23,173 nucleotides of DNA from a virus. Within the stretch, counting starts at the first letter, position 1, and each line of letters begins with the position of its first letter. Below, one piece after another: positions 2,682-6,479 of the stretch. The position numbers and the translations under genes are program-made. The notes below the pieces were generated by a model, which did no database searches, was not told the origin of the DNA, and was given only the letters and a program-made list of their open reading frames with translations. The stretch covers positions 1,025 through 24,197 of IMG/VR virus record IMGVR_UViG_3300030430_002883; one strand, written 5' to 3'.

Positions 2682-2893
2682 GTAGACCAACGAAGCTGGG
2701 GGGCGCCGGAAAGATGTTTAGTCTCATGCTACGCAAAAGACAGCACCAGATTTTGCTGAACAAGTCAGAGGAATTGACTCGACTTACGAACAAGCAGGTC
2801 AGTGTGGCAGACATCGTGAGACTCTGCATCGACATACACATGGAGAAAACTTGTGATGAGATCGAGCGAAGATTCCGCGCCGAAACATACTAA
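2678..2893 (+). CDS. putative ribbon-helix-helix-like DNA-binding protein (71 aa)
   Basis: The start ATGA overlaps the previous stop and follows AAAGGAG. Residues about 12-55 fit a short strand (KMFSLMLRKRQ), a helix (HQILLNKSEELTRLT), a turn and a second helix with 'SVADIVRLCIDIHM'. This is the ribbon-helix-helix arrangement seen in small Arc/CopG-type repressors. The basic N-terminus and first strand suit DNA contact. It lies close to a second RHH-like gene (3488) and may regulate phage promoters, but no operator has been matched to it. Confidence 0.65.
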   Translation: MSRPTKLGGAGKMFSLMLRKRQHQILLNKSEELTRLTNKQVSVADIVRLCIDIHMEKTCDEIERRFRAETY

Positions 2894-3077
2894 GCAATAT
2901 CTGATTGCCCAAGACTTCGTCGCCCACGGCATACACTACTATGTCGTGGAGGCGGAGACCATGGGCGAGGCGATTCAAAAAATCGAGGATGATCCAGACC
3001 TGCTGCCTGTCAAAGGCGAGACGCAGATCTTCAAGATCATGGGTTATACCGAAGCTGAAGACAACTATGACTGTTGA
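2856..3077 (+). CDS. small beta-alpha protein of unknown function (73 aa)
   Basis: ATG at 2856 is preferred; a GTG one codon upstream also exists, with GGAG about 11 bp upstream. The gene overlaps the preceding one by 38 bp. After a short polar N-terminus, residues about 15-40 read 'QYLIAQDFVAHGIHYYVV' and then E-A-E-T and a helix (MGEAIQKIEDD). This is the strand, V-x-A, helix pattern of the genes at 1002 and 1409. The C-terminus is acidic. It probably shares a small fold with them; function unknown. Confidence 0.65.
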   Translation: MRSSEDSAPKHTKQYLIAQDFVAHGIHYYVVEAETMGEAIQKIEDDPDLLPVKGETQIFKIMGYTEAEDNYDC

Positions 3078-3546
3078 CAGCAAGCAAAATAAAAATAAAA
3101 TACTGGATTACACAATCACCCTATATTCTAATAGGTTAAAGATTGTGAAGGAGGTGGTGTGCAAACCCACCGAAGTGGAGAAGGTGATCGATGAACTGGA
3201 CGAACAAGCCAGCATCCCCAGAAGGGGAGACGGTCACCATGGTTACTACATCGAAGTCGAAGTAAGGAGATACAAGGATGTCTATGGTATCGCTGGTAAA
3301 CGACCAGCTAAATCTGATTCGCGGAAAGTCAATTCGGTTCATGCTGGAGGACAACGATCTAAGGATGATCGCAAACCTGGTGGCGGTGGTGGACGAATTG
3401 AGGCTGGAGTACGACGGGGAGTCGATGGTGTATCGCGAACCGAAGACCATCCGAAAGCGCGGACGCCCAAAAAACGGGGACAAGTAGATGGCAACAAAGC
3501 GAGGCAGACCTCCGGTAAAAGACGAGCAAAAAGCAAAGTTTCGTAA
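3067..3546 (+). CDS. unknown protein with long basic tail overprinting the next gene (159 aa)
   Basis: The ATG at 3067 overlaps the previous stop but has only a weak GAAG-type site. The first 75 residues look natural: a strand (LDYTITLYSNRLKIVKEVV), a helix (PTEVEKVIDELDEQ) and another strand (HHGYYIEVEVRR). The frame then stays open across the whole of the gene at 3278 and into the gene at 3488. That part encodes a Gly-rich, strongly Lys/Arg-rich tail. The N-terminal part is probably real; the tail may be incidental, or a true overprinted DNA-binding tail. A candidate promoter overlaps its first codons. Confidence 0.5.
   Translation: MTVDSKQNKNKILDYTITLYSNRLKIVKEVVCKPTEVEKVIDELDEQASIPRRGDGHHGYYIEVEVRRYKDVYGIAGKRPAKSDSRKVNSVHAGGQRSKDDRKPGGGGGRIEAGVRRGVDGVSRTEDHPKARTPKKRGQVDGNKARQTSGKRRAKSKVS
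3074..3101 (+). promoter_or_regulatory. candidate sigma70 promoter for the AT-hook gene cluster
   Basis: A perfect -35 hexamer TTGACA (3074-3079) is followed by 16 bp and the -10-like TAAAAT (3096-3101, 5 of 6 matches). The spacer and following bases are A/T-rich. It would start RNA near 3108, upstream of the genes at 3278, 3488 and 3670, and the unit would end at the hairpin at 3921-3943. It is the best plus-strand promoter match I found; activity is inferred from sequence only. Confidence 0.55.
3278..3487 (+). CDS. small protein with C-terminal AT-hook (69 aa)
   Basis: ATG at 3278 follows a good AGGAG site. The body is helical (residues about 24-45, DNDLRMIANLVAVVDELRLEY), perhaps a dimerisation helix, and the C-terminus carries the AT-hook core K60-R-G-R-P64 followed by KNGDK. 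AT-hooks bind the minor groove of A/T-rich DNA. The gene directly abuts 3488, whose product begins with the same core, and precedes 3670, whose product ends with it. It probably acts in DNA architecture or regulation; the exact role is unknown. Confidence 0.75.
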   Translation: MSMVSLVNDQLNLIRGKSIRFMLEDNDLRMIANLVAVVDELRLEYDGESMVYREPKTIRKRGRPKNGDK

Positions 3547-3673
3547 CGTGGCCGTCCCGTTAGAACACTATGAAATGTTACGTCAGATATCAGAGGAACA
3601 GGACAGGTCGATGGCAAGACAGTTGGCCGTCCTGATTCGAGAAGCATATCAGCAAACACGAGGTGCAACATGA
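3488..3673 (+). CDS. ribbon-helix-helix protein with N-terminal AT-hook (61 aa)
   Basis: The ATG immediately follows the stop of the previous gene, with CGGGGA upstream. K4-R-G-R-P8 forms an AT-hook core at the N-terminus. Residues about 17-55 then fit a ribbon-helix-helix: strand (FRNVAVPLE), helix (HYEMLRQISEEQD), turn and helix (SMARQLAVLIREAY), as in Arc/CopG-type dimeric repressors. It may therefore bind DNA in two modes, beta ribbon in the major groove and AT-hook in the minor groove. The stop overlaps the next ATG. Probably a regulator or DNA-organising protein. Confidence 0.8.
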   Translation: MATKRGRPPVKDEQKAKFRNVAVPLEHYEMLRQISEEQDRSMARQLAVLIREAYQQTRGAT

Positions 3674-3915
3674 TTGAGAAGTTTTTGAAAATGTTCTTTC
3701 CGACCTTTGTGACTCACAAAAGAAACATCGAGTCTGCAAAGGTGTTCGAGAGAGCACGAGATGACAAGGGCAGATTGAAAGCCGACGACAAGAAGACGCC
3801 CACGTTCAACGAAGCGTGGGTCGGGGGTCAGGCGCCAGCCAAAAAGAAAGCGGCGCCCAAGAAGGCCGCACCGAAGAAGCGAGGCAGGCCGAAGGGTAGC
3901 AAGAACAAGAAGTAG
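3670..3915 (+). CDS. Lys/Ala-rich AT-hook protein (81 aa)
   Basis: The ATGA start overlaps the previous stop and follows GAGGTG. The N-terminal 50 residues contain 'ESAKVFERARDDKGRLKADD' and 'TFNEAWVGG', phrases I recall from short phage proteins of unknown role. The last 25 residues are a histone-H1-like tail of K-K-x-A-A-P repeats that ends with the AT-hook K70-R-G-R-P74 and GSKNKK. The protein should bind DNA strongly and non-specifically. It is the last gene before a strong terminator, so its transcript is well delimited. Confidence 0.8.
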   Translation: MIEKFLKMFFPTFVTHKRNIESAKVFERARDDKGRLKADDKKTPTFNEAWVGGQAPAKKKAAPKKAAPKKRGRPKGSKNKK

Positions 3916-3920
3916 GAATC

Positions 3921-3943
3921 GGGCGGCGTGAGCCGCCCTTTTT
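3921..3943 (+). terminator. rho-independent terminator closing the left plus-strand block
   Basis: GGGCGGC (3921-3927) and GCCGCCC (3932-3938) form a perfect 7-bp G+C stem with a GTGA loop, followed by five T residues (3939-3943). It begins six bases after the stop of the AT-hook gene. The minus-strand operon ends at 3943 from the other side. Read on the minus strand the hairpin lacks a T-run after it, so it should stop that operon poorly. Confidence 0.9.
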
Positions 3944-4395
3944 CATGCCTCCCACCGGAACTTCAGTTGCCCGTAGATCGGTTGCCAGTCCCGATTCCGA
4001 TTCTTGCGATCCCAGCCCTGCGAGGTGGGCTTGACCTCTCCGACGATCTTCCAACCGGCGCCCCGAAGCGAAGATCCAGACTCTTCTTGCAGGGTATATG
4101 TGACCATGCGCTTGCCACCCATTTGCTGCCAGATTCGCCAACACCGCCCGTAAAGAAAACTGCACGAGTTTTTGGGTGCGTGATCCACGACACAAACTCT
4201 GGTAACCTCGGCTGTTAGGCCGTCGTCTAACATTCGAGCCACCGGTCTGCCTACAATAGCTACCCCGACAAGTTCACTGCCGTAGCTCGCCCCGATAGCA
4301 AACTTACCGCCACCGGTAGGCTTGTTGTGCCGATGAAAGTTTTCGACAAACTCATTCGCCTCCCGAATACTGACGGGTGTGACTTCCAGTTTCAC
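3943..4395 (-). CDS. XF1762-like, GNAT-related phage protein (150 aa)
   Basis: This starts with GTG at 4395 inside a GTGA overlap with the gene before it. The sequence (N-F-H-R-H-N-K-P, then GGGKFAIGAS and ELVGVAIVGRPVAR, then LTAEVTRVCV, YGRCWR and SGSSLRGAGWKIVGE) matches my memory of the XF1762 family. That family is common in phages and prophages and related to GCN5 N-acetyltransferases. The V-x-x-V-G-R-P-V-A-R stretch falls where the acetyl-CoA-binding region would be. Substrate and role in infection are unknown. It is the last gene of the SNF2 operon. Confidence 0.8.
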   Translation of the reverse strand: MKLEVTPVSIREANEFVENFHRHNKPTGGGKFAIGASYGSELVGVAIVGRPVARMLDDGLTAEVTRVCVVDHAPKNSCSFLYGRCWRIWQQMGGKRMVTYTLQEESGSSLRGAGWKIVGEVKPTSQGWDRKNRNRDWQPIYGQLKFRWEA

Positions 4396-4967: not shown

Positions 4968-6403
4968 TGTCTGGCCTCCTCTCCAAGTACCTTGGCACCT
5001 ATGTTGATTTTGTTTCGTAGTGAATCAACGATCTTCTCATCAACTGTATCTTCACAGATCAGATCGATGTATGTCACTGGGTTCTTCTGACCAATACGAT
5101 GGCAGCGATCCTCCGACTGAATCCTTGTTTCAAGATTAAAGTCATTTGCATAATAGATCACTGTGTTGGCCTCGGTCAGTGTCAGGCCATATCCAGCGGT
5201 AGCGGGGTTCGCCACAAAGAAGCGTGCGTTACCGTTCTGGAATCTGTCAATCGCGCTCTGCCGATCAGCATCACTGGTGTCACCATAGTATGTGACCACA
5301 GACTGTTCTCCATACTCGGCGGCAAGCGTGGCTTGAATCCTTGTGATGTCGTAGCGGAAGCGCGACCAGATGATGACCTTGCCAGATGCCTCGTCTACAC
5401 ACTCCATCATTGCATCGAGCCGCCGTGATGGGAACTCGGACATCTCACCGTCGTCAGTCTTGAGGTGCCCCGACAGTATCTGCTGATATCTCAGAAGCTG
5501 TGTGATGACCTGCATGGCCGTGACCAGCTTGTTGTCTTCAAGCAATGTCATGGCCTCCTTGACGATGTCATCATACATGCGCCGCTGTTCGGGAGTCATG
5601 GTCACATACCGCACGGTGTACAGCTTGTTGGGCAAGTCCAAGCAATCTTTTTTCAAGACTCGGAAGCTAAAGCTATCGATCTTGTCAGTCAGCTCATCCA
5701 GATTCTTGTAGCCAACGACCTGCTGGAAGCTGTGCGATCCCATGTTGCGCTTCTGTATGATGGCGTAGCGTGCCTGAAACGCATAGTAGGAGTCGTAACC
5801 CAAGAGCCGTGGGTCGAGGAACGCGCACTGTGAATACAAGTCCAAGGGCGACTTTGTGACGGGCGATCCGGTCAGCAACCTACGATACTTGAACTTTTGT
5901 GAAATTTTGAGAAGTGACTTGGTTCGTGCAGCCTTTGGATTCTTGATGGTTGTAGATTCATCAATCGCAATCATGCCATGCGATCCAAACCTGTCAGCGA
6001 TCCACTCGCCGGCTTTCTTGCCACGTTGTGAAGAGAACGCCTCGACATTCATCACAAAGATCTTCACGCCTGGGTCTTGTGACGCAAAGAATGCTTTGGC
6101 TGCATCCTTATACTTCTTTGTGTTGTTCGGCTCCCAATGAAACACAGAGTGCCGGATGTCAGTGGGAAAATGCTGCGGCACTTCCTTGTTGATCCAGTTT
6201 TTGTACACACCTTTGGGTGCGATGATCAGAGCAAAGTCGATGCGGTTGATGTTGCCCATATACGCAATCGTGTCGATCAAGACCTTTGATTTACCCGTAC
6301 CCATCTCCATGAAATACGCAAAGTATTCTCGGTCAAGGTTCTGTTCCCAGGCCTCGAGTTGATGCTTATATGGTTCTGTTCTAAATTTGTAGTTGACTTC
6401 CAT
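4931..6403 (-). CDS. SNF2-family (SF2) helicase/translocase (490 aa)
   Basis: Two RecA-like lobes of an SNF2-type DNA-dependent ATPase are present. Lobe 1 has Walker A M-E-M-G35-T-G-K-S39, Walker B D148-E-S-T151 followed by IKNP (DEST in place of DEAH, as in other phage SNF2 proteins) and motif III L-T-G-S-P (to about 181). Lobe 2 has 'VIIWSRFRYD', 'NPATAGYGLTL' and motif VI R433-C-H-R-I-G-Q439. Phage members are thought to act in recombination, replication restart or DNA remodelling. The ATG at 6403 has a GGAGGA site and a near-consensus promoter upstream. The gene leads the minus-strand operon. Full length, no obvious defects. Confidence 0.95.
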   Translation of the reverse strand: MEVNYKFRTEPYKHQLEAWEQNLDREYFAYFMEMGTGKSKVLIDTIAYMGNINRIDFALIIAPKGVYKNWINKEVPQHFPTDIRHSVFHWEPNNTKKYKDAAKAFFASQDPGVKIFVMNVEAFSSQRGKKAGEWIADRFGSHGMIAIDESTTIKNPKAARTKSLLKISQKFKYRRLLTGSPVTKSPLDLYSQCAFLDPRLLGYDSYYAFQARYAIIQKRNMGSHSFQQVVGYKNLDELTDKIDSFSFRVLKKDCLDLPNKLYTVRYVTMTPEQRRMYDDIVKEAMTLLEDNKLVTAMQVITQLLRYQQILSGHLKTDDGEMSEFPSRRLDAMMECVDEASGKVIIWSRFRYDITRIQATLAAEYGEQSVVTYYGDTSDADRQSAIDRFQNGNARFFVANPATAGYGLTLTEANTVIYYANDFNLETRIQSEDRCHRIGQKNPVTYIDLICEDTVDEKIVDSLRNKINIGAKVLGEEARQWLTLTPNSRAA

Positions 6404-6423
6404 ATATGTCCTCCATTACGTTA

Positions 6424-6452
6424 TTTATAAGTTGGCTGGACGAGCTAGTCAA
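6424..6452 (-). promoter_or_regulatory. sigma70-type promoter of the SNF2 operon
   Basis: On the minus strand, TTGACT (6447-6452; 5 of 6 matches to -35) is followed by exactly 17 bp and TATAAA (6424-6429; 5 of 6 matches to -10). This would start RNA near 6417, giving a short leader that holds the GGAGGA site (6409-6414) and the ATG at 6403. It lies in the only sizeable intergenic gap of the window. Confidence 0.75.
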
Positions 6453-6453
6453 C
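6431..6453. promoter_or_regulatory. inverted repeat over the SNF2 promoter (candidate operator)
   Basis: Arms GTTGGCTGG (6431-6439) and CTAGTCAAC (6445-6453) are separated by 5 bp. Seven of nine positions are exact inverted matches and the other two would be G-U pairs in plus-strand RNA. The dyad covers the promoter spacer and the -35 box, so a bound repressor would block the SNF2 promoter. It could equally be a hairpin in the leader of the divergent gene at 6480. Confidence 0.5.
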
Positions 6454-6479
6454 ATAAACCTGAAGAGGATATACTTGTT

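Follow-up and report, generated by a model that had tools for sequence, protein, structure and literature searches.

AT-hooks and other tails as exchangeable parts of small proteins in a modular cassette of a marine podovirus

Homologues of xenogeneic silencers have been found in phage genomes (PMC7074111), and proteins p16.7 and p1 of phi29 are membrane-linked DNA organizers (PMC4974454). In SPP1, as in other phages, the scaffolding protein binds the N-terminus of the capsid protein (PMC6813328). Among marine podoviruses, phages have been assigned to the HTVC023P-type group when their PolA is at least 45% similar to that of cultured members (PMC9599517). Here, we analyzed a window, meaning the whole stretch of 23,173 nucleotides, that comes from a 29,292-base virus record and whose phage origin, assumed in an earlier note on this DNA, was confirmed. 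The annotated phages closest to its helicase and DNA polymerase were 023Pt_psg01, DSL-LC04, and the pelagiphages HTVC023P and HTVC027P (46-55% identity; 48-55% for the polymerase and 46-51% for the helicase). PolA of the window shares 48-50% identity over 98-99% of its length with HTVC027P and HTVC023P, a likeness that does not imply a SAR11 host. By this measure the polymerase falls within the HTVC023P-type group, and the replicon hosting the cassette is, judging by sequence similarity, a marine podovirus related to that group. HMO-2011 phages were considered as the closest group and were dropped in favor of the HTVC023P group. No mention of AT-hooks was found in the literature searched on HTVC023P-type phages, and a search for phage AT-hooks combined with a ribbon-helix-helix domain likewise returned no paper.

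The cassette and its flanking elements are as follows, in window positions:

3041..3140, no strand: A/T-rich island where gU begins, falling to 25% GC; its position is conserved among relatives, and the candidate promoter hexamers inside it are not conserved
3067..3546, plus strand: gU, a conserved gene with a predicted folded core at residues ~12-73 and a long basic disordered tail whose coding sequence covers g1 completely and extends 59 bases into g2
3278..3487, plus strand: g1, predicted two helices and a beta-hairpin, with RKRGRPKNGDK as its C-terminal AT-hook; other alleles bear a capsid N-terminal arm
3488..3673, plus strand: g2, which opens at the N-terminus with an AT-hook, MATKRGRP, and continues with a likely ribbon-helix-helix domain; conserved in helicase relatives
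3670..3915, plus strand: g3, a hydrophobic amphipathic N-terminal helix, a RARD-DD-TP-NEAW module, a Lys/Ala/Pro linker and a C-terminal AT-hook, KKRGRPKGSKNKK
3921..3943, plus strand: intrinsic terminator between g3 and a Mom-like gene, which converge here

Relatives for comparison comprised 80 sequences fetched via the helicase and further ones via g1, gU, and g3. Upstream of the cluster lies a small conserved gene (2678-2893; MSRPTKL...DIVRLCIDIHMEK) whose product is helical and ribbon-helix-helix-like in appearance, with no family match. Downstream of the capsid gene, complete relatives (L410-L414) carry several consecutive small genes with very basic products, possibly virion DNA-binding proteins.

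The motif KRGRP occurred three times in the 7,510 amino acids of the 33 predicted window proteins, always in the consecutive genes g1, g2, and g3; within-protein shuffles gave a mean of 0.006, and three occurrences were never reached in 3,000 of them. The open reading frames 3278-3487, 3488-3673, and 3670-3915, with their motifs at the C-, N-, and C-terminus, respectively, were found as the earlier note had listed them, as was the Lys/Ala/Pro tail of g3. Its expectation that the hooks would be conserved in homologs also held: hook residues were invariant amid synonymous codon changes in hooked g1 (7/7) and g3 (13/13), as was GRP in g2 (17/17), and the arginine codons varied among relatives, including changes from CGN to AGR. 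Since residues stayed constant while codons changed, the hooks are selected, and codon comparison indicates that they are under purifying selection in the relatives. A conserved GRP core with flanking basic residues places them in the AT-hook class, for which DNA binding would be expected. No match to Pfam AT_hook was obtained up to an E-value of 1 for the window's g1, g2, and g3, and in relatives the model scored 12.6-13.6 bits, below its cut-off of 17.4. The g3 sequence RGRPKGSKNK closely matches an HMGA1 hook.

The genes are adjacent in relatives, as the earlier note had anticipated, but co-occurrence stood only in part, all three hooked genes being present together in only ~5 distinct clusters. 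Hooks come and go gene by gene: that of g1 gives way to a capsid-protein arm, that of g3 was lost in one relative (L026), and g2 is often hookless; g3 itself was not found at all in some relatives. Across the relatives compared, hooks and other tails exchange on constant domains, and the trio is best described, from these alignments, as modular with swappable tails rather than as a fixed set. The ribbon-helix-helix fold previously proposed for g2 is credible from its match to Pfam RHH_5 (E 6e-5), but the score of 23 bits lies under the curated cut-off of 26, and Arc-like PHROGs gave weak matches only. In most distant relatives this domain lies near the helicase and is without a hook, and the hook of g2 is therefore an add-on.

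g1 consists of a constant N-terminal part and a variable tail, which among distinct clusters is a hook in 8, a match to the capsid N-terminus in 13, and both in 1. Alleles with a capsid match of ~20 residues (L003, L006, L007, L010, L014, L017, L021, L024, L032, and L071) carry a segment, RAQLAKELEPGLNALFG..Y, that aligns with the beginning of the major capsid protein (phrog_371, Pfam Phage_capsid_4); the other distinct proteins bearing it were all capsid proteins with the segment at their start (79/79). Within g1, 17 of its 20 positions were invariant with synonymous variation. Compared with the phage's own capsid gene, 18 of 20 residues match but only 42-46 of 60 bases, and the likeness is an old, selected one. 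The window's own g1 lacks the capsid arm. Three comparisons bear on how these alleles move. The helicases of L002 and L003 are near-identical (synonymous difference 0.05), with g1 alleles of different class (0.59); L006 and L010 have near-identical flanks on both sides of a locally different g1; and the window and L019 have close g1 genes (0.06 in the core) and helicases that are 0.71 apart. These patterns indicate that g1, together with the tail of gU, is exchanged on its own, i.e., between sister phages and independently of g2 and g3. Searches placed g1 in no family of Pfam or PHROGs and gave no fold match in the PDB, where the hits were dropped as not significant; a 76-residue viral protein with no annotation (A0A516LN93) resembles it (TM 0.71, E 0.02).

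The gU frame was overlooked in the earlier note. It meets no stop before g1, crosses all of g1 and ends at 3546 within g2; its start and core are conserved in relatives, the core being predicted as strand-strand-helix-strand and the tail as disordered. In 15/15 gU-bearing sequences the frame is open over 210-410 bases of g1, where synonymous recoding under genome codon usage would leave 26-44 bases (P<=0.002 each, for sequences that are related and non-independent). A harsher control, in which g1's own codons were reshuffled, gave P values of 0.0003-0.21, again across related sequences. Only 1.2% of 70-codon stretches in ordinary window genes were fully open in the corresponding frame, and in three g1 genes with no detected gU the frame was open over merely 20, 32, and 134 bases. 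In L124, an apparent broken gU start persists upstream of g1, and gU is ~83 residues or shorter in the few clusters where g1 was not found. Openness beyond chance, tied to the presence of the overlapping gene, argues for an overlapping gene pair in which g1 likely arose, or is maintained, atop the basic tail of gU; the pair is a clear example of such overprinting, for which the relatives lacking gU serve as a natural loss control. No family was found for gU in Pfam, PHROGs, or solved-structure searches, and a resemblance to the fold of the T4/RB69 antitoxin Dmd (E 2.4-2.5, TM to target ~0.5) was not significant and was dropped.

The N-terminal helix of g3 has a calculated hydrophobic moment of 0.53 and a mean hydrophobicity of 0.91. 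In L177 a plain transmembrane-like segment replaces the helix before the same module and hook, and some g3 genes keep helix and hook without the NEAW module. The module (RARD..G.L..DD..TP..NEAW) is shared by many otherwise unrelated phage proteins, in which a hook or lysine-rich tail comes after it; in a less biased sample of 60 distinct tails, 24 contained KGRP or RGRP and 56 were basic. A broader form, RAR[ND]..G.[LY]..DDPSTP.[VI]NEA[WY], with a basic or AT-hook tail was seen in unrelated marine phage proteins (L168-L244 and L250-L329), often by the major capsid gene. Two types of NEAW protein adjoin the major capsid genes of two different lineages, at 51/55 and 35/39 loci; these counts, like those of the tails, come from searches seeded with related, non-independent sequences. 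In the window's clade the module was absent from the five capsid regions inspected and, where found, occurred in g3 only. Neither g3 nor the module matched a family in Pfam, PHROGs, or solved-structure searches, and we consider the NEAW module previously undescribed.

Taking these observations together, we put the probability at about 0.5 that the cassette encodes DNA-tethering adaptors and one hooked ribbon-helix-helix regulator, not a DNA-coating complex. According to this reading, it is a recombining modular cassette near the replication genes, whose small proteins would grip DNA by interchangeable minor-groove or basic tails. g2 would be an Arc-type ribbon-helix-helix regulator with an added AT-hook arm that strengthens its grip, and its target may be the A/T-rich island with which the cassette begins. 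g3 would act as a tether, with its hydrophobic N-terminal helix in the membrane or on a protein partner and its hook on DNA, and g1 as an adaptor whose tail either grips DNA (the hook, in the window) or presents a capsid N-terminus (other alleles); gU is a basic protein whose tail shares its coding DNA with g1. The sub-threshold RHH_5 score, the want of a PDB fold for g1, and the failure of the Pfam AT-hook model count against this reading, and the tether role is weakened by the shortness of the g3 helix and by the ability of hydrophobic helices to serve as binding sites for proteins. AT-hooks emerge from this comparison as interchangeable parts in phage proteins.

The alternative that survives best, although we regard it as unlikely, is one of head-linked adaptors: g1 and g3 would join phage DNA to the assembling head, or would themselves be virion components. 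In long g1 alleles, the capsid arm would bind a partner of the capsid N-terminus (e.g., scaffold, as the SPP1 interaction illustrates), NEAW in g3 would contact a head protein, and DNA would be held by the hooks or basic tails. The residue match between the arm and the major capsid protein, its restriction elsewhere to capsid proteins, and the adjacency of NEAW proteins to capsid genes in two lineages favor such a link. However, the window's own g1 is armless, proteins like g3 with a hydrophobic helix do not adjoin the capsid gene, some g3 lack the module, and the cassette lies outside the structural region. A related idea, speculative and no more probable, would have early-region tethers built from pieces of the phage's own head proteins: the hook or basic tail would mark the DNA, the capsid N-terminus (g1) or capsid-neighbor module (g3) would recruit scaffold or procapsid, and sister phages would swap alleles. 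A capsid N-terminus on a small non-structural protein, together with the NEAW module, may help to show how phage DNA becomes connected to the assembling head.

The earlier note favored an abundant DNA-coating, xenogeneic-silencing, or counter-silencing set that binds A/T-rich DNA together, made from a dedicated transcription unit. Three conserved AT-hooks in neighboring genes, the basic H1-like tail of g3, and the silencer homologues of other phages are in keeping with it. The unit was to begin at a TTGACA-16-TAAAAT promoter (3074-3101). Its hexamers match at 11/12 positions, but TTGACA is absent in 12/15 relatives, and the hexamers lie astride the stop codon of the preceding gene (2853-3077) and the gU start. 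Because the gU start is the lowest-GC 80-mer of the locus in 10/14 sequences, a regulatory role for the island there is possible, though not evidenced by the hexamers. A second A/T-rich low spot, with TATATGG/CCATATA arms, lies where the helicase and replication genes start divergently (6350-6470). The island had no 8-mer in common with this divergent region near 6400, no common inverted repeat was found, and the search gave no g2 operator. The strong terminator proposed at the other end is credible in the window, its hairpin (3921-3938) with T5 being the most GC-rich terminator candidate in 6.5 kb, with candidates as a class not enriched over shuffles. Different hairpins of equal strength lie 3' of g3 in L027-L029 and L123, but several relatives have no terminator after g3, and therefore the three genes do not generally form a closed unit. 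With the promoter not conserved and gU overlapping as well, the dedicated transcription unit is unsupported. Beyond the terminator, a Mom-like DNA-modification gene (3943-4395; PHROG 1384 E 2e-40, Pfam Mom) converges on the cluster; it was not detected at the corresponding place in L006 and is present in its close relative L010. The genome is 51% GC with 80 A/T runs vs. 117 expected, which does not point to a need for A/T coating, and Pfam and PHROGs gave no match to H-NS, Lsr2, or a related domain in the window trio. With hooks lost gene by gene, the set rarely complete, and g1 exchanged alone, a mixed coating or silencing complex was not borne out, and we judge it improbable. Least probable of all is a counter-defense or phage-competition cassette, in which g1 alleles are exchanged under diversifying selection, the capsid arm serves as a decoy for host capsid sensors or an inhibitor of competitor assembly, and hooks place the proteins on DNA, as local g1 replacement in otherwise near-identical phages, a pN/pS higher in g1 than in neighboring genes, and the adjoining Mom-like gene might suggest, but overlapping coding likewise raises pN/pS and recombination by itself is common in phages.

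Tethering adaptors with one hooked regulator, the preferred reading, resemble several known systems in part. In annotated phages, including HTVC023P-type phages, 023Pt_psg01, and DSL-LC04, no g2 relative was found, and a long-form g1 query matched capsid proteins only. H-NS/Lsr2-type xenogeneic silencers likewise use AT-hook-like minor-groove binding (PMC7074111), which in the trio is predicted from sequence, whereas the trio matches no such family and has no demonstrated oligomerization domain. HMGA-type AT-hook proteins (Pfam PF02178) share the GRP core flanked by Lys/Arg, but here single hooks sit on three unrelated phage domains, with no significant Pfam or PDB match for the trio proteins. 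g2 aligns with the Arc/MetJ repressors (Pfam RHH_5, Arc) over the ribbon-helix-helix region, at sub-threshold score, and differs in its added N-terminal AT-hook. Finally, phi29 p16.7 and p1 share with g3 the proposed principle of a membrane segment combined with DNA binding, with no homology claimed; unlike them, g3 is tiny and would use a hook in place of a folded DNA-binding domain.
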